The notes beneath the pieces were generated by a model that was not told the origin of the DNA, ran no database searches, and worked only from the letters and a program-made list of their open reading frames with translations. This document shows positions 29,060 through 36,956 of a stretch of 64,000 nucleotides of DNA, one piece after another. Position numbers and translations under genes: made by a program. This stretch comes from Thermospira aquatica (GTDB lineage Bacteria > Spirochaetota > Brevinematia > Brevinematales > Thermospiraceae): positions 2,356,001 through 2,420,000 of the forward strand of contig NZ_CP073355.1 of NCBI RefSeq assembly GCF_023525255.1. The letters run 5' to 3'. Every line of letters begins with the position of its first letter. The first letter of the stretch is position 1.

Positions 29060-29140
29060 GGAGGAAACTGTATGGAATTTTTGAGTACTTTTTATGAGGC
29101 AATGATTCAATTTCAGTACTTTTTATTTGGAAACAACGGG
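29060..29140 (-). mobile_element. Solo right end of the integrase-type IS
   Basis: About 80 bp matching, with small gaps, the right end of IS copies A and B: GGAGGAAACTGTATGG, then two AGTACTTTTT motifs, ending in ACAACGGG near 29140. It directly abuts the truncated tRNA and contains the stop codon of the next gene, so it is the scar of an insertion followed by deletion. Confidence 0.75.
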
Positions 29141-30852
29141 TGCTCTGAAGATTTTTCTGGGAAAAGGAGTTGAAAATCCTTGTCCCCCAGCGGACGTATC
29201 TTTAATATGTCACGTTGAGGAAAAAAGATACTATCGCTCTCGAGCATATTCAAAAAACGATGAAGGTGTTTAATATGATGTTCGAGAGAATTCGGATAAG
29301 GAAAAATCTTTTTTTGAAGAAAGTTAATATTCTCCTTAAATGAAATATCATTTTGAACACAAAAGCTCTTGACCTGTTCATAGGTAGTTTCGTCAAAAAA
29401 GAGAAAGGTATGAGGTTCGATCTCTATGCTCTCCCTGGAAAAATGATCGGCTATAAGATTTGATTTTGTAGAAGCAAATTGGAGAATATGGAGATGCTCC
29501 TCCGACGGGTGAATATAGTGTTCTGCATAATATCGAATATTCTGAATAACCTGTTGAGGAAGTTCATGCCGAGAATGACTCTTAAGAAAAGCCTCAATTG
29601 CTTCAACAGTATAGCCATAAGCCAAGGCTTTGTAAATAGACTTTTTCGTAATCTGGTAGATAGCGATCGTATGAATTTCTTTTGGTTCTGCCATAAAGAT
29701 AAGTTCAAGATGAGTAGCAGGATGGAGATCCGGTTCAACAATAATTTCACCATTGGACTCCACAATAAAATCCTGTTTCACAAAGAAAGAAGAAAGCTCA
29801 GTATTGGTAAGAAGCGCCTGATAAAACGAATTCAATGTGAGAGTATCCTGTCGCGATATCTGAAGAGGATGATTTCTATGAATAGTAACAATATTCTGCT
29901 TCTCGAGAAGCTTAAGCAAATGAATAAAGTTCTGCTCCTCTCGCTGGAGAAACAATTTAAAAGATTTTATGGTATTACGAGAAAGGGTGGCCAGAATATG
30001 CTGACAGAAAAAGAAAAACAACTCTCGAAGAGAAATAGATTCATGTCGAGTATATGCCAACCATTGCAAGGTAAGAAACGTGCTTTTCTGAAATTCAAGT
30101 TTCTCTAGTGTTTCATAGAGAAAAGTCAGCGAAAAAAGAGAAGAGACGGGTAAACTCCGTAGATGTTCAACAATATTTTTCTGTACAAGAATACGGTTGT
30201 TATACTTTTGAACAAGACCTATATGGGAGAAACTTTTTATAAGGTTTTCAAGACGCTGAGGGGGGATGGAGTGCTCAAAAAATCCTGCAAATTTCTGAAA
30301 GTCTATACGATGGATTTCATTTGCTTCTGAACTCCGTGGGGTATACGCGACAAGATAAGCCAAAACTCCAATGAGTTGAGGAATAAGTGTGTAGAGCGTT
30401 TCTTCAAGATTTTCATTTGAAGGTTTTTCAGGTAGTTGAAGTTCAATAAAGGGAGAAAGAAAAAGAAAAGAAAAATAGGTAAGCGGTTCATAGTTGAAAA
30501 GAATCCTCTTCTTCCCCAACTCTTCAAAACCCTGGCGAAGATTTTCTTTGTCTATGAAAAAGACCGAGCTTATAAAACGAATCAGATTATCAAGAGAATC
30601 ATAAGCAAGCCAGCCAAAATTCTTCATAACAATATCCAAGACTAATCTTGCGTTTTCCGAAAGAGAAGACAAAACCTCAGAAAAGTGTTCTTTCCACCAC
30701 CCGTAGATACGAGAAATTCTCTCTTGATTTGTAGGCGTATCAAAAGAAGGATCAACTTTTTCACCAGTAACTTCATAGTAAAGATTGGCAATAAACTCTG
30801 GTTCGTTTTCTAAACACTTGAGAGCTACCTCTCTATACATTGTTCTCATCAT
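29113..30852 (-). CDS. XPB-associated protein with Helicase_C_3-like domain
   Basis: 579 residues. The N-terminal and middle parts are helical, winged-helix-like (about 1-360). Residues from about 360 (FIVESNGEIIVEPDLHPATHLELI... AIYQITKKSIYKALAYGYTVEAIEAFL) match the XPB/Ssl2-like domain often called Helicase_C_3. It overlaps the XPB helicase gene by 4 bp, so the two are translated together and probably act together in DNA repair or transcription-coupled processes. The last codons and stop lie in the IS scar (PLFPNKKY), so the natural C-terminus was probably replaced. ATG is at 30852, followed by a second Met. Confidence 0.75.
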   Translation of the reverse strand: MMRTMYREVALKCLENEPEFIANLYYEVTGEKVDPSFDTPTNQERISRIYGWWKEHFSEVLSSLSENARLVLDIVMKNFGWLAYDSLDNLIRFISSVFFIDKENLRQGFEELGKKRILFNYEPLTYFSFLFLSPFIELQLPEKPSNENLEETLYTLIPQLIGVLAYLVAYTPRSSEANEIHRIDFQKFAGFFEHSIPPQRLENLIKSFSHIGLVQKYNNRILVQKNIVEHLRSLPVSSLFSLTFLYETLEKLEFQKSTFLTLQWLAYTRHESISLRELFFFFCQHILATLSRNTIKSFKLFLQREEQNFIHLLKLLEKQNIVTIHRNHPLQISRQDTLTLNSFYQALLTNTELSSFFVKQDFIVESNGEIIVEPDLHPATHLELIFMAEPKEIHTIAIYQITKKSIYKALAYGYTVEAIEAFLKSHSRHELPQQVIQNIRYYAEHYIHPSEEHLHILQFASTKSNLIADHFSRESIEIEPHTFLFFDETTYEQVKSFCVQNDISFKENINFLQKKIFPYPNSLEHHIKHLHRFLNMLESDSIFFPQRDILKIRPLGDKDFQLLFPEKSSEHPLFPNKKY

Positions 30853-32525
30853 GGCAAAGTAACCTCTTGGATAAGAGTCTTTGATTTTGGTGTAAAATAG
30901 AGTACTTCATAGGTATACCCTTTCTCTATCAAAAACATTTGGCGTCTTTTAGCAAATTCTTCTTCGATAGTATTTTGAGAAACAATTGTAAAAAAGTGGA
31001 CATCCTGTGCTTGTGGCCTGAGGATTCTTCCGAGTCTCTGCGCCTCTTCTTGACGCGATCCAAATATCCCTGAAACCTGGATAGCAACATTTGCCCCAGG
31101 AAGATCAATAGAAAAATTCCCAACACGTGAAATAATGAGAGCGGTAAGCTCCCGTCTCCTGAATGCGTCATAAAGCCTCTCACGCTCTTCCGATGGCGTC
31201 TGACCTGTGATCAGTGGTATAGAAAAAAACTCTGATATCGCTTGCAGCTGATCAAGAAAATGTCCAATAATAAGAATACTTTGATCAGAAAAACGTGTAA
31301 GAAGGTGAGATAGAACATCGAGTTTATTTTTGTTTTCAGACGCTATACGAAAACGCAATCGGTGAGAAGAGTTGAGATAGGTTTCAAAATCCTCGTTAGA
31401 AAGAGGAACGCGTATTTCATAACATCGGGCTGTGGCAATCCATCCTTCTTGCTCGAGGGTTTTCCACCCGTATTCATAGATCTTAGGACCAATGAGGGAA
31501 AACACTTCCCCCTCCCGGTTATCTTCCCTCACAAGAGTGGCTGTGAGACCAAGTCTTCTCTTGCTCTGAATGGCGGTGGTCATTCGAAAAATAGGTGCGG
31601 GAAGAATATGAACCTCATCATAGATAATGAGCCCCCATTGATGCTGGGTAAGAATATCGATATGTCTTTCCTCACTATTGGATTTTCGATGAATAAGCAT
31701 GTAGTATGTTGTAAGGGTAATTGGTTTTATTGTTTTTGTCTGAGCAGTGTATTCACCAATATCATCCTCAGTGAGAGTTGTTTTATCAAGAAGTTCACGC
31801 TTCCATTGATGAAGAGCTTCCAGATTCGTTGCAATAATTAGCGTATTTTCCTGGATGTCACTCATTACCGCCATGCCTACGATAGTTTTTCCTGCCCCAC
31901 AGGGGAGAACAATTACCCCACTACCCTCCTTCCATTGGGAAAAAAGATACGCTGCTTCTGCCTGATAAAAACGCAGAGCAAACTCAGATCCACTACGAGT
32001 AACCTTTCTCAAAGTAAAAGGAATCTTCTCTCCCCTTTCATAACCGGCAAGGTCCTGAACAGGGATCAGATGTTTGATCAAAGTAGCCTTAATAAGGCCA
32101 CGATCCGAAAAAGAAGCTAGAAACCCACCTTCTCTCTCGTTAAGTTGAAAATCCTTGAGATAACGAATCAAATCTTCCTTGAGACCGGCATTTTTCACCT
32201 CAATGAAAAGTTGATCCTGCCATCTATGAAAAATCACCTCTCCATACCGATTATAATGTTGTTGAATAAATTCCATAACAGGCTTGGGTACAGGATAACG
32301 GGAGAAATCTTCGAGAGTATGAATGATTTGCGAAAGAGGAAATTTGTTAGCAGCAGCATTCCAGAGAGAGATAGGAGTAATACGATAAAAATGAACATGT
32401 TCGAGGGTTTTTGTAAGTTCAGCAAAAGCAAAAAGGTATTTTTGAACCATCTCAAAATCTTTGTGATGAGTATCAAGAAGAATGGTTCCGTTTGTCTGTA
32501 TGGTCAGTGCACCTGTGCGCATCAT
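30849..32525 (-). CDS. XPB/Ssl2-family DNA helicase
   Basis: 558 residues, superfamily 2. An N-terminal damage-recognition-like domain is followed by helicase motifs: Walker A LPCGAGKT (207-214), DEVH at 302-305, the XPB-specific RED motif at 332-334 (VREDNRE), and motif VI QRLGRILRP. Bacterial XPB homologues are 3'-5' helicases, sometimes working with a partner nuclease; here the partner is the Helicase_C_3 protein encoded next. The start is one of two adjacent ATGs (32525 or 32522); AGGAGG lies unusually far, about 14 nt upstream. Confidence 0.93.
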   Translation of the reverse strand: MMRTGALTIQTNGTILLDTHHKDFEMVQKYLFAFAELTKTLEHVHFYRITPISLWNAAANKFPLSQIIHTLEDFSRYPVPKPVMEFIQQHYNRYGEVIFHRWQDQLFIEVKNAGLKEDLIRYLKDFQLNEREGGFLASFSDRGLIKATLIKHLIPVQDLAGYERGEKIPFTLRKVTRSGSEFALRFYQAEAAYLFSQWKEGSGVIVLPCGAGKTIVGMAVMSDIQENTLIIATNLEALHQWKRELLDKTTLTEDDIGEYTAQTKTIKPITLTTYYMLIHRKSNSEERHIDILTQHQWGLIIYDEVHILPAPIFRMTTAIQSKRRLGLTATLVREDNREGEVFSLIGPKIYEYGWKTLEQEGWIATARCYEIRVPLSNEDFETYLNSSHRLRFRIASENKNKLDVLSHLLTRFSDQSILIIGHFLDQLQAISEFFSIPLITGQTPSEERERLYDAFRRRELTALIISRVGNFSIDLPGANVAIQVSGIFGSRQEEAQRLGRILRPQAQDVHFFTIVSQNTIEEEFAKRRQMFLIEKGYTYEVLYFTPKSKTLIQEVTLP

Positions 32526-33290: not shown

Positions 33291-33322
33291 AAAAAAAATC
33301 CCCACACTTTATTGTGGGGATA
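33291..33322 (-). terminator. Intrinsic terminator of the sigma factor gene
   Basis: On the minus strand the stem ATCCCCACA/TGTGGGGAT is followed by eight Ts, about 100 bp beyond the stop codon at 33419. Confidence 0.85.
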
Positions 33323-33418: not shown

Positions 33419-34321
33419 TTACTGCAAATAAGCATAAAGCCCCTTCATGTCTGAATCCTGGCTCATCATGACCATCATGTTTTTCTCTATCTGACGAATC
33501 CGTTCTTTCGTCAGATTAAGCTTTTTCCCTACTTCAGAAAGAGAATGAGGTTCCTCTCCATTGAGACCATAACGATATTCTATAACCTTTTTTTCTCTCT
33601 CAGGAAATTTATCCAACACCTCATTGATCTTTTCTCTTAAAACGTCTTGCAAAACAGCTTCATCAGGACTATTGGCAGCATCATTCAAGTAGGACTTCTC
33701 CAGCATCTCATCGAGTGTTACCTCGGTATCTTCGGATATCATTTGATCCAGTCCTATACCACTGGTAGACATATCAAGCATCTTGCTAATCTCACTTTTC
33801 TGAATTTTGGTAGCCTCAGCAATTAAATCCAGAGAAGGTTGTCTTCCATTTTTTTGAACGTATTCATTAATGTATTTCCATACCTGGAGGAGCTGATTAT
33901 TTCTATTCATAGGTAAACGGACCATACGACTTTTTTCGGATATAGCCTTCAAAATAGACTGACGTATCCACCAAACTGCATAAGAAATAAAATGAAATCC
34001 ACGACGATAATCAAATCGTGTTGCAGCCTGGATAAGCCCAATATTCCCCTCACTGATAAGATCAGTCATAGAAAGACCCAGGCCCTGATAATGCTTTGCT
34101 ACAGAGACAACAAACCTTAAATTAGCCAAAACAAGTTTATCACGAGCCTCTTTGTCTCCTTCCAGGACACGTTTACCAAGCTCTTGTTCTTCTTCACGTG
34201 TGAGGAGAGGAATTTTCTCTATCTCACGAATATAGAGTGCTAATGTATCAGAATGATATATCATCTGGGAAAGCTCTTTCAAAGTGGAAGCAGTTTTTTT
34301 GTCTTCTTTTGTCTTTACCAT
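33419..34321 (-). CDS. Sigma-70 family factor, probably group 2 (RpoS-like)
   Basis: 300 residues, too short for a housekeeping RpoD with region 1.1. Region 1.2 (DTLALYIREIEKIPLLTREEE), region 2 (LVLANLRFVVSVAKHYQGLGLSM, then RRGFHFISYAVWWIRQSI), region 3, and region 4.2 helix-turn-helix (LSEVGKKLNLTKERIRQIE) are all present. The protein directs RNA polymerase to an alternative or stationary-phase regulon. ATG 34321 follows GGAGG. A sigma-54 promoter sits about 40 bp upstream, the arrangement known for Borrelia rpoS, which supports an RpoS-like role. Confidence 0.88.
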   Translation of the reverse strand: MVKTKEDKKTASTLKELSQMIYHSDTLALYIREIEKIPLLTREEEQELGKRVLEGDKEARDKLVLANLRFVVSVAKHYQGLGLSMTDLISEGNIGLIQAATRFDYRRGFHFISYAVWWIRQSILKAISEKSRMVRLPMNRNNQLLQVWKYINEYVQKNGRQPSLDLIAEATKIQKSEISKMLDMSTSGIGLDQMISEDTEVTLDEMLEKSYLNDAANSPDEAVLQDVLREKINEVLDKFPEREKKVIEYRYGLNGEEPHSLSEVGKKLNLTKERIRQIEKNMMVMMSQDSDMKGLYAYLQ

Positions 34322-34362
34322 AAAAGACCTCCTTGATCCCTCGTCTTATGTATTATTTTAAT

Positions 34363-34378
34363 TGCAAAAATCGTGCCA
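34363..34378 (-). promoter_or_regulatory. Sigma-54 (RpoN) promoter upstream of the sigma factor
   Basis: On the minus strand TGGCACG-ATTT-TTGCA matches the -24/-12 consensus TGGCACG-N4-TTGC without mismatch. It lies about 42 bp before the ATG, placing the transcript start near 34350. An RpoN enhancer-binding activator would be needed; none is in this window. Confidence 0.8.
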
Positions 34379-34557
34379 TTTTTTAGCATTCTTTATTTTC
34401 ATGAAAAATAAGGAAATAGAAAATTTGAAACGAAAGCGAGTAAGGTTTATGGATTCTTTTTCTCAAAAGAGAGAAAAGTATTCAAAAATTGTATCACAAT
34501 GACACACTGCAGATCTTTTTTCTTTGAAAAATGTATCGTTTTGAAAAATTCCTTTTT

Positions 34558-35337
34558 TTATTTCGAGAGAGACTTCCACTCTCTCAGAAGAGAGATTCGA
34601 TGAGGATTTTTGACAAGGGTTGTCCCCACCAGGATGCCATCATAACCAGCATCAATAACGTGAGTGATCTCGTCGGTCTGAGAAAATGCTGAGAGGCTAA
34701 GTTTATAACTTTCCTTTGGAAGAAGTTCGGCTACCTGAAGACTATACTGCCAATCTTCTTTAAGGGTACGCAGATCACGATTGTTGATCCCTATAATGGG
34801 GTAGTTTTTGTCCCGTAGGGCAAGGATATTGTTCGGGTCATGAACCTCAACAAGAACATCCAGTCCAAGGCTACGGGCATAGTCAAAAAGTTCATCAAGA
34901 CGCTCGAGATGGTCAAAAGCTTCAGCAATAAGAAGAATCATATCGGCTTTATAAAAACTTGCCATATCGATCTGGCTTTCATCAATAATAAAGTCTTTAC
35001 AAAGAACAGGGAGCCCCGTAGTTTCTTTGATCTCCTGAAGAAAAGCAAAACTCCCACCAAAAAAATGTTCGTCTGTCAGAACGGAAATAGCATCCGCTCC
35101 CCCTTCTTTATACTCAAGAGCGATGGAGATGGGATCGCTTTCCATAGCCATAGCCCCCTGAGAGGGGGATTTCCTTTTGACCTCGGCGATGACAAAAATC
35201 CCTCTGGTTTCCGAAAGCTTGTTTTGAAAGAGAAAACCCTCCGAGGTTTTTTTTGCCAGAGGGCGAATTGCCATCTGGCGAAAATTTTCTATTTCTTTTT
35301 TTTTGTATTCTAAGATTTCTTTAAGAATATTCATCAT
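34558..35337 (-). CDS. trpC: Indole-3-glycerol phosphate synthase
   Basis: 259 residues, TIM barrel, converting carboxyphenylamino-deoxyribulose phosphate to indole glycerol phosphate. Family blocks: EVKRKSPSQGAM, VLTDEHFFGGS, LPVLCKDFIIDESQI, IIGINNRDLRTL, and the C-terminal DGILVGTTLVK. The start is ATG 35337, overlapping the trpGD stop by 4 bp, with GGGAG upstream; longer in-frame sequence reads into trpGD. TrpF is not fused. This is the last trp gene in the window; trpF, trpB and trpA must lie elsewhere. Confidence 0.95.
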   Translation of the reverse strand: MMNILKEILEYKKKEIENFRQMAIRPLAKKTSEGFLFQNKLSETRGIFVIAEVKRKSPSQGAMAMESDPISIALEYKEGGADAISVLTDEHFFGGSFAFLQEIKETTGLPVLCKDFIIDESQIDMASFYKADMILLIAEAFDHLERLDELFDYARSLGLDVLVEVHDPNNILALRDKNYPIIGINNRDLRTLKEDWQYSLQVAELLPKESYKLSLSAFSQTDEITHVIDAGYDGILVGTTLVKNPHRISLLREWKSLSK

Positions 35338-36956
35338 GCTTTCTCCCAGGAGAGTTCTCGCGCCTGGAGGAGGGTTTGCCATGCCCGGCCGTTTTCAATA
35401 GCTTGTCTTGCCTTTGTGAAAGCTTGATCGAGGGATATATCATCGAGAATATAGATAGCAAGACCCGCGTTAAGGATAACAGCTTTAGAAGGATCTCCTG
35501 TTTCTTTTCGCTGGAGAATGTTCTCAATGATGGTTTTACTTTCCTCTGGAGAGGAAATACGGCAGTTTTCAAGTTTACCAGCCAGGTTGAAATCAGCAGG
35601 GTCTAAAATCATCTCTTTTGTGGTTGATTCTTTGATCTCTGTAATGAGGGTCTTGCCCTCGATGGTTGCCTCATCGAGTCCACCTTCTCCATGGAGAACA
35701 AGGGCTCTTTTGTACCCAAGCCTTACAAATACCTCGGGTAAAAGCTCGTAAAGTTCTCTTGAAAAAACCCCCATAACATGATACTTCACATGAGCGGGAT
35801 TAACGAGTGGTCCAAGGATATTAAAAAGGGTACGGAAACCAAGCTCTTTTCGAACGGGCATAACATATTTAAGGCCGGGATGATACTGCGGTGCAAAAAT
35901 AAAACCAAAATTGGTTTTTTCTATACAGCGTTTTACCACATCAGGGCCTGCAGTTACACAGAATCCAAGTTTTTCTAAAACATCAGCTGATCCACTCTGC
36001 GAGGTAATCGAGCGGTTACCATGTTTGGCTACTTTGTAGCCAGCCCCGGCAACCACAAAGGCTGCCGCTGTCGAGATATTGAAGGTGTTTGACTTATCCC
36101 CTCCTGACCCACACGTGTCCACAACCTTTTCGTCTGAAAGATTAACGGAAACACAGTGTCGTGCCATGGAACGAGCACTTCCTGCGATTTCAGCAGCGGT
36201 TTCTCCTTTCATGCGAAGAAGGGACAAATATGCTGCTATCTGAGAAGGCGTAGTGTGGCCCTCGAGCATCAGATCAGTAAATGCTTCAGTTTCTTCTTCG
36301 CTGAGGTTTTCTCTCATGGAGAGACGTTGAAAAATATTCTTTGAAAGAGAGGACACTTTTCCAACGAGTTTTTCCTGTTGTTTCTGATGAACAATACGGA
36401 CAAAATTGGCAATCATCTGTTTACCATAGTCAGTGAGGATAGATTCTGGATGAAACTGAACGCCGTAGATAGGTTTGTCCTTGTAGGCGAGTCCCATGAT
36501 CTCCCCATCATCACTCTCGGCAGTAATTTCAAGTGTTTCGGGAAGAGAGGCTCTCACCGCCACCAGGGAGTGATAACGAATAGCGGTAAAGGGGGATGGA
36601 ATACCCTCAAATACGCCCTTCCCATTGTGGGTGATGGATGAAGCCTTGCCGTGCATGATGTGGGTAGCTCCACTTACCTGTCCTCCCACAACAATCGTAA
36701 GAGCCTGATGCCCCAGACATACCCCAAGTAATGGAATGTTTTCATCTATAGCATAACGGATCATGTCAAGAGAAACCCCGGATTCTTCTGGTCTTCCTGG
36801 ACCGGGGGAAATTACAATGCCGTCTATTTTCATGTTTAAGGCTTCATCAAGGGAAATGGCATCATTTCTATACACCTGGATCTCTTTTTCGTATTCTCCA
36901 AGGTACTGAACAATGTTGTAAATAAACGAATCATAATTGTCGATAACGAGAATCAT
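35334..36956 (-). CDS. trpGD: Anthranilate synthase glutaminase-phosphoribosyltransferase fusion
   Basis: 540 residues. Residues 1-190 are a class I glutamine amidotransferase with nucleophile motif GVCLGHQAL and the HPESILT end of the triad. Residues about 200-540 are anthranilate phosphoribosyltransferase with VDTCGSGGDKSNTFNIST and KHGNRSITSQSGSADVLE. It supplies ammonia to TrpE and adds the phosphoribosyl group to anthranilate. The fused TrpGD is known in E. coli and some other bacteria. It lies between rtcB and trpC. Confidence 0.95.
   Translation of the reverse strand: MILVIDNYDSFIYNIVQYLGEYEKEIQVYRNDAISLDEALNMKIDGIVISPGPGRPEESGVSLDMIRYAIDENIPLLGVCLGHQALTIVVGGQVSGATHIMHGKASSITHNGKGVFEGIPSPFTAIRYHSLVAVRASLPETLEITAESDDGEIMGLAYKDKPIYGVQFHPESILTDYGKQMIANFVRIVHQKQQEKLVGKVSSLSKNIFQRLSMRENLSEEETEAFTDLMLEGHTTPSQIAAYLSLLRMKGETAAEIAGSARSMARHCVSVNLSDEKVVDTCGSGGDKSNTFNISTAAAFVVAGAGYKVAKHGNRSITSQSGSADVLEKLGFCVTAGPDVVKRCIEKTNFGFIFAPQYHPGLKYVMPVRKELGFRTLFNILGPLVNPAHVKYHVMGVFSRELYELLPEVFVRLGYKRALVLHGEGGLDEATIEGKTLITEIKESTTKEMILDPADFNLAGKLENCRISSPEESKTIIENILQRKETGDPSKAVILNAGLAIYILDDISLDQAFTKARQAIENGRAWQTLLQARELSWEKA

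Follow-up and report, generated by a model that had tools for sequence, protein, structure and literature searches.

The window, by which we mean the whole 64-kb stretch of DNA analysed, carries on its minus strand a gene for a sigma-70-family protein of 300 amino acids, termed gene A, which is preceded by a regulatory intergenic region of 236 bp that is bounded by the end of a probable trpC gene (Table 1). According to Pfam, the protein comprises sigma-70 regions 1.2, 2, 3 and 4, with region 1.1 being absent. Proteobacterial RpoS is of similar architecture and its model, rpoS_proteo (TIGR02394), is the best-scoring NCBIfam model for A, yet the 249.8 bits obtained do not reach the equivalog cut-off of 378.7 and E. 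coli RpoS lies outside family A in the phylogenetic tree. Four sigma-70-family genes are present in the source genome, namely A, rpoD, a second short sigma gene termed B, and a probable fliA. The full-length primary sigma factor of the genome, the housekeeping RpoD, is encoded by a separate gene (593 aa, at C1:2083779) and is distinct from A. Region 2.4 of sigma A reads IRQSIL, as in SigA of the Bacteroidota, and that of RpoD reads IRQAIT; the IRQSIL motif hints at a changed -10 element.

The terminator-like hairpin that follows gene A suggests a monocistronic unit. An Rfam search of the window gave no match. Elsewhere in the window, two overlapping minus-strand genes (29113-30852 and 30849-32525) encode an XPB/RAD25-type helicase and a partner protein; a Helicase_C_3 domain was assigned to each.

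Table 1. Positions of gene A and of the elements surrounding it in the window.
Feature	Position	Strand	Basis and remarks
Sigma-70-family gene A, 300 aa	33419..34321	-	Pfam; NCBIfam; family A clade
-24 element TGGCACG	34372..34378	-	Sequence; conserved upstream of orthologues
-12 element TTGCA	34363..34367	-	Sequence
Ribosome-binding site AAGGAGG	34328..34334	-	Sequence; inside the 41-nt gap between site and ATG
Enhancer-like dyad TGTGTCATTGTGATACA	34490..34506		111 bp upstream of the -24 element; sole perfect TGTRTCANNNTGAYACA match in the genome
Second dyad-like copy, one mismatch	34244..34260		Within the first part of the sigma reading frame; possibly fortuitous
Terminator-like hairpin and T run	33298..33321	-	Consensus scan only; about 97 nt past the stop of A
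Upstream gene, probably trpC (read from sequence)	34558..35382	-	ORF list; same strand as A

Sigma-54 site of gene A and its distribution

In agreement with the initial annotation, which had placed a perfect sigma-54 site about 42 bp in front of the sigma gene, TGGCACG-ATTT-TTGCA (TGGCACGATTTTTGCA) is found at 34378-34363 on the minus strand, the exact distance to the ATG at 34321 being 41 nt. The site features GG at -25/-24, GC at -13/-12 and the standard sigma-54 spacing; when C34364 is taken as -12, this spacing predicts a transcription start near 34352, close to the 34350 expected in the initial annotation. It is the only sigma-54 match without mismatches in the window, while matches with up to two mismatches occur there at chance level (3 vs. 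2.9 expected). In the 2.515-Mb genome, four perfect and 14 one-mismatch occurrences of TGGCACGNNNNTTGCW were counted, i.e., 18 with at most one mismatch, compared to four for the reversed control. Further sigma-54 sites were noticed 41 nt before an Hsp20 gene (L011, C1:1600068, minus strand), 156 nt before a possible gene for the omega subunit of RNA polymerase (L010, C1:1090440, plus strand) and, for a probable alpha-amylase gene (L022, C1:1157209, plus strand), 8 nt ahead of the closest in-frame start codon; the three genes are candidate members of the RpoN regulon.

As rarity of the motif alone is no proof, the function of the site was argued from its conservation upstream of orthologous genes. 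To this end, 69 A genes were drawn from 198 spirochaete genomes so as to represent families across the phylum, and about 350 bp upstream of each were searched with an approximate weight matrix for sigma-54 sites at a cut-off of at least 12. A site was present in 37 of the 69 cases, far above the 0.43 expected from dinucleotide shuffles, and the antisense strand yielded one. The distance to the start codon has a median of 30 nt (range 16–99). None of six RpoD control genes possesses such a site, whereas it precedes 12 of 13 B genes (0.1 expected). Named spirochaete records, e.g., that of Breznakiella homolactica, also contain the site upstream of A. A chance match, with A being transcribed by the housekeeping sigma-70, would agree with the chance-level frequency of two-mismatch matches in the window and with a weak sigma-70-like hexamer pair that overlaps the site, although the region holds fewer such pairs than chance would give; against conservation of this extent, in which both strand and distance fit and which is accompanied by conservation of an upstream dyad (see below), we attach a negligible probability to this explanation.

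Phylogenetic analysis placed the A proteins in a clade of their own (support 97/90), the closest relatives of which are short primary SigA proteins of the Bacteroidota, Gemmatimonadota and Calditrichota (97/94) that share the IRQSIL motif. These differ from family A in that the latter coexists with a full-length RpoD (593 aa in the source genome), and their genes almost never exhibit a sigma-54 site. Within family A, the site is absent from a large clade of mostly longer proteins (families f12, f20, f23, f30 and others), from f14, which is probably Brachyspira, from f4 and f43, and from a few more. On the other hand, the A gene of a Treponema pallidum-like genome, which we take to be TP1012-like, has retained it (TGGCATGATATTTGCT), while no B match was found in this genome. 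In total, a sigma-factor gene preceded by a sigma-54 promoter and by a conserved candidate site for an activator was encountered in roughly half of the families of spirochaetes studied. With regard to the alternatives of ancestral or convergent wiring that had been put forward for the phylum, the wide occurrence of short sigma-70 genes under sigma-54 control argues for old inheritance and against one-off convergence. However, the wiring need not predate the whole phylum, because the Brachyspira-like lineages, which do not possess it, form the first branches within family A.

Upstream dyad and candidate activators

Alignment of the upstream DNA of the source genome with that of its sister species revealed the dyad TGTGTCATTGTGATACA. 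With up to two mismatches to TGTRTCANNNTGAYACA allowed and a score of at least 10 taken to define an A gene with site, such genes had the dyad in their upstream DNA in 26 of 40 cases, compared to one of 29 for A genes without site; in the former it usually resides 70–165 bp before the -24 element. At the same tolerance, no match was obtained for 19 B and RpoD genes or for 64 loci from other phyla or without assignment, which also distinguishes the short SigA proteins from family A. In genomes G148 and G008 a perfect dyad occurs once per genome, each time upstream of A. No recognizable dyad is present at the A gene of the T. pallidum-like genome, though the sigma-54 site is kept. Two other occurrences, a copy at C1:479067 and a perfect dyad at the start of murG in a Treponema denticola-like genome, do not adjoin a sigma-54 site.

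The prerequisites named in the initial annotation, i.e., rpoN and an Rrp2-like AAA+ regulator, are both encoded in the source genome. RpoN is represented by an ORF of 451 aa (PF04552, E 1.9e-57) with the RpoN-box-like sequence SRRTVAKYR, and rpoN was found in 190 of the 198 spirochaete genomes. Two Borrelia-like genomes (G076 and G106) each gave two partial rpoN matches, as if the gene were split or frameshifted. AAA+ activators of the GAFTGA class number four in the source genome: a REC-less AAA+-HTH protein of 346 aa encoded two genes from rpoN, a REC-AAA+-HTH protein at 920 kb beside a histidine kinase, a REC-AAA+-Fis HTH protein (C1:923.4-924.8 kb) and a GAF-GAF-AAA+-HTH protein. The third groups with Rrp2 of Borrelia and with TP0519-like and T. 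denticola-like regulators and is thus the Rrp2 orthologue among the four. AtcR of T. denticola was rejected as an Rrp2 orthologue, being a LytTR regulator (PMC7586716).

Both the dyad and the sigma-54 site track Rrp2-like activators with the recognition helix IGRKTLxRKL. Helix and A site are both present in 15 genomes and both absent in 22, with three discordant genomes (Fisher p 5e-8); when kinship is taken into account, the association amounts to 4–5 changes on the tree and at most four independent pairs, too few to be informative, and is not significant (sign test p ~0.5). The discordant genomes are G035, which has the helix and no site, the T. denticola-like genome, which has the helix but whose site is weak, and G052, where a site goes with an altered helix. 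Families f14 and f43 carry an IERATL helix and no A site. In the small genomes of family f4 (L204, L242 and L243), the Rrp2-like activators lack a DNA-binding HTH and the sigma-54 site of A is lost as well.

Two further lines of evidence come from gene content and gene order. G148 encodes a single activator, which is Rrp2-like, and combines it with a perfect dyad and a 20.2-bit sigma-54 site at A. In G003, G047 and G008 the gene for the Rrp2-like protein is located directly upstream of A, the dyad and the site being situated in the 3' end of the activator gene or in the gap that separates it from A. Taken together, the lone activator, the adjacency and the association of helix and site point to the Rrp2 orthologue as the protein that most likely activates A. 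A genuine A promoter whose dyad is bound by another activator, be it the REC protein at 920 kb, the REC-less protein near rpoN or the GAF-type protein, appears unlikely to us: the source genome does offer four candidates, and G037, a genome of the same genus without an A gene, retains all four including the Rrp2 orthologue, but the other three carry recognition helices unlike that of the Rrp2-like protein, and both the sole activator of G148 and the adjacency in three genomes speak against it. What G037 does imply is that A cannot be the only target of the Rrp2 orthologue. We thus hold it to be highly probable that the site in the window functions as a sigma-54 promoter, from which the probably monocistronic gene for the alternative sigma factor A is transcribed and which is activated by the Rrp2 orthologue via the dyad.

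Gene B and the relationship of A to RpoS

A sigma-54 site, TGGCATGTTTCTTGCA, is likewise found upstream of gene B of the source genome (C1:990945-991742), in the stretch C1:990748-990945 (G000; L184:1349-1546), with 35 nt separating it from the ATG. Three copies of ATTTTTGTATACAW lie upstream of B and are conserved in the genus, only four perfect copies being present genome-wide. These repeats of its own suggest that A and B may be served by different activators.

The initial annotation had transferred the wiring of Borrelia, in which RpoN and Rrp2 transcribe rpoS, to the gene in the window. That A is the rpoS orthologue and the system a plain Borrelia cascade in a distant spirochaete could be read from the shared promoter type, the similar protein length and the best NCBIfam model being RpoS, as well as from the finding that the genes for Rrp2 and RpoS are less than 8 kb apart in a Borrelia-like genome and those for Rrp2-like proteins and A are neighbors elsewhere. 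Phylogeny and gene order contradict this. Borrelia RpoS and B of the source genome fall into one clade with a support of 100/97, both forming long branches, and a grouping of RpoS with A was rejected by the AU test (p-AU 0.003). Moreover, in the Borrelia-like genome, G091 and G193 the neighbors of rpoS/B are c7 and tsaD, and in G006 the neighbor is c7 alone, an order common to B and Borrelia rpoS, and the source genome possesses B as a separate gene. Gene order and the AU test also dispose of positional orthology of RpoS with A as deduced from the proximity of rrp2 and rpoS. An orthologous relationship of A and RpoS is therefore very improbable; judged by these analyses, A is a sister of RpoS and not RpoS itself, and B is the true orthologue of Borrelia rpoS. 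Of the proposed wiring, rpoN, the Rrp2 orthologue and the sigma-54 site stand, while the putative target is A instead of RpoS and an enhancer-like dyad lies upstream of it. Borrelia-like genomes searched contain B and no A gene. In one Borrelia-like locus (L179, G187:C1:819100-821700) the -24/-12 site of rpoS is degenerate (TGACATAATTGTTGTA) despite the presence of rpoN.

Proposed relay and related systems

In the mechanism that we propose, RNA polymerase with RpoN would wait at the -24/-12 site of A and the Rrp2-orthologous REC-AAA+-Fis HTH regulator would bind the dyad TGTRTCA-N3-TGAYACA, some 110 bp further upstream. Upon presumed phosphorylation, the regulator would open the promoter through ATP hydrolysis, and sigma A would then redirect polymerase to a second tier of genes, whereas B would be controlled from a separate sigma-54 promoter that is preceded by different repeats.

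The Rrp2-RpoN-RpoS cascade of Borrelia burgdorferi resembles this arrangement in that an RpoN promoter resides directly before a short sigma-70-family gene and the REC-AAA+-HTH activator is orthologous, and the source genome additionally has the RpoS orthologue B with a sigma-54 site. It differs in the target sigma factor, RpoS belonging to family B and the gene in the window to family A, and in that no dyad was seen at rpoS of Borrelia-like genomes whereas a conserved dyad is located upstream of A. Activation of Borrelia rpoS by Rrp2 is reported to be enhancer-independent, according to the title of Blevins (2009) as cited in PMC3037356. Sigma-54 regulation via an activator also connects A with the EbpA-RpoN system of Leptospira. 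In family f9, which we take to be Leptospira, there is no clear A gene and the best activator match lies outside the Rrp2 clade. A review reports RpoS to be absent from L. interrogans (PMC12655853). The RpoN-RpoS cascade is treated as a pathway of Borrelia (PMC11109971, PMC3037356, PMC12655853), a broad sigma-54 survey names control of sigma-S only in this genus (PMC3162934), and a description of family A or its wiring was not found in the open-licence literature.

As far as sequence comparison can tell, the initial annotation was thus right about the promoter, claimed less importance for it than it has and was wrong about orthology: A is a second, putatively enhancer-equipped arm from sigma-54 to sigma-70 beside the RpoS arm. 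The distribution described above suggests an old origin within the phylum for a sigma relay that had been known from no bacterium other than the Lyme disease agent. For the course of its evolution we consider a scenario to which we give even chances. The Spirochaetota would have inherited a two-armed relay, in which an Rrp2-type activator and RpoN act on A via a dyad enhancer and RpoN acts on RpoS/B, and this relay would then have been pruned: Borrelia would have lost A and the enhancer and kept an enhancer-less rpoS, the T. pallidum-like genome would have kept only A, and Brachyspira and Leptospira would have lost the wiring. If true, this would explain why Rrp2 of Borrelia acts free of an enhancer despite having kept the IGRKTL helix, and the RpoN-RpoS cascade would be one branch of an old spirochaete relay. 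Treponemes, including the T. pallidum-like genome, and free-living lineages would possess a second sigma factor. The dyad would supply a defined operator, and it, the named activator and the target would all be testable in culturable species.
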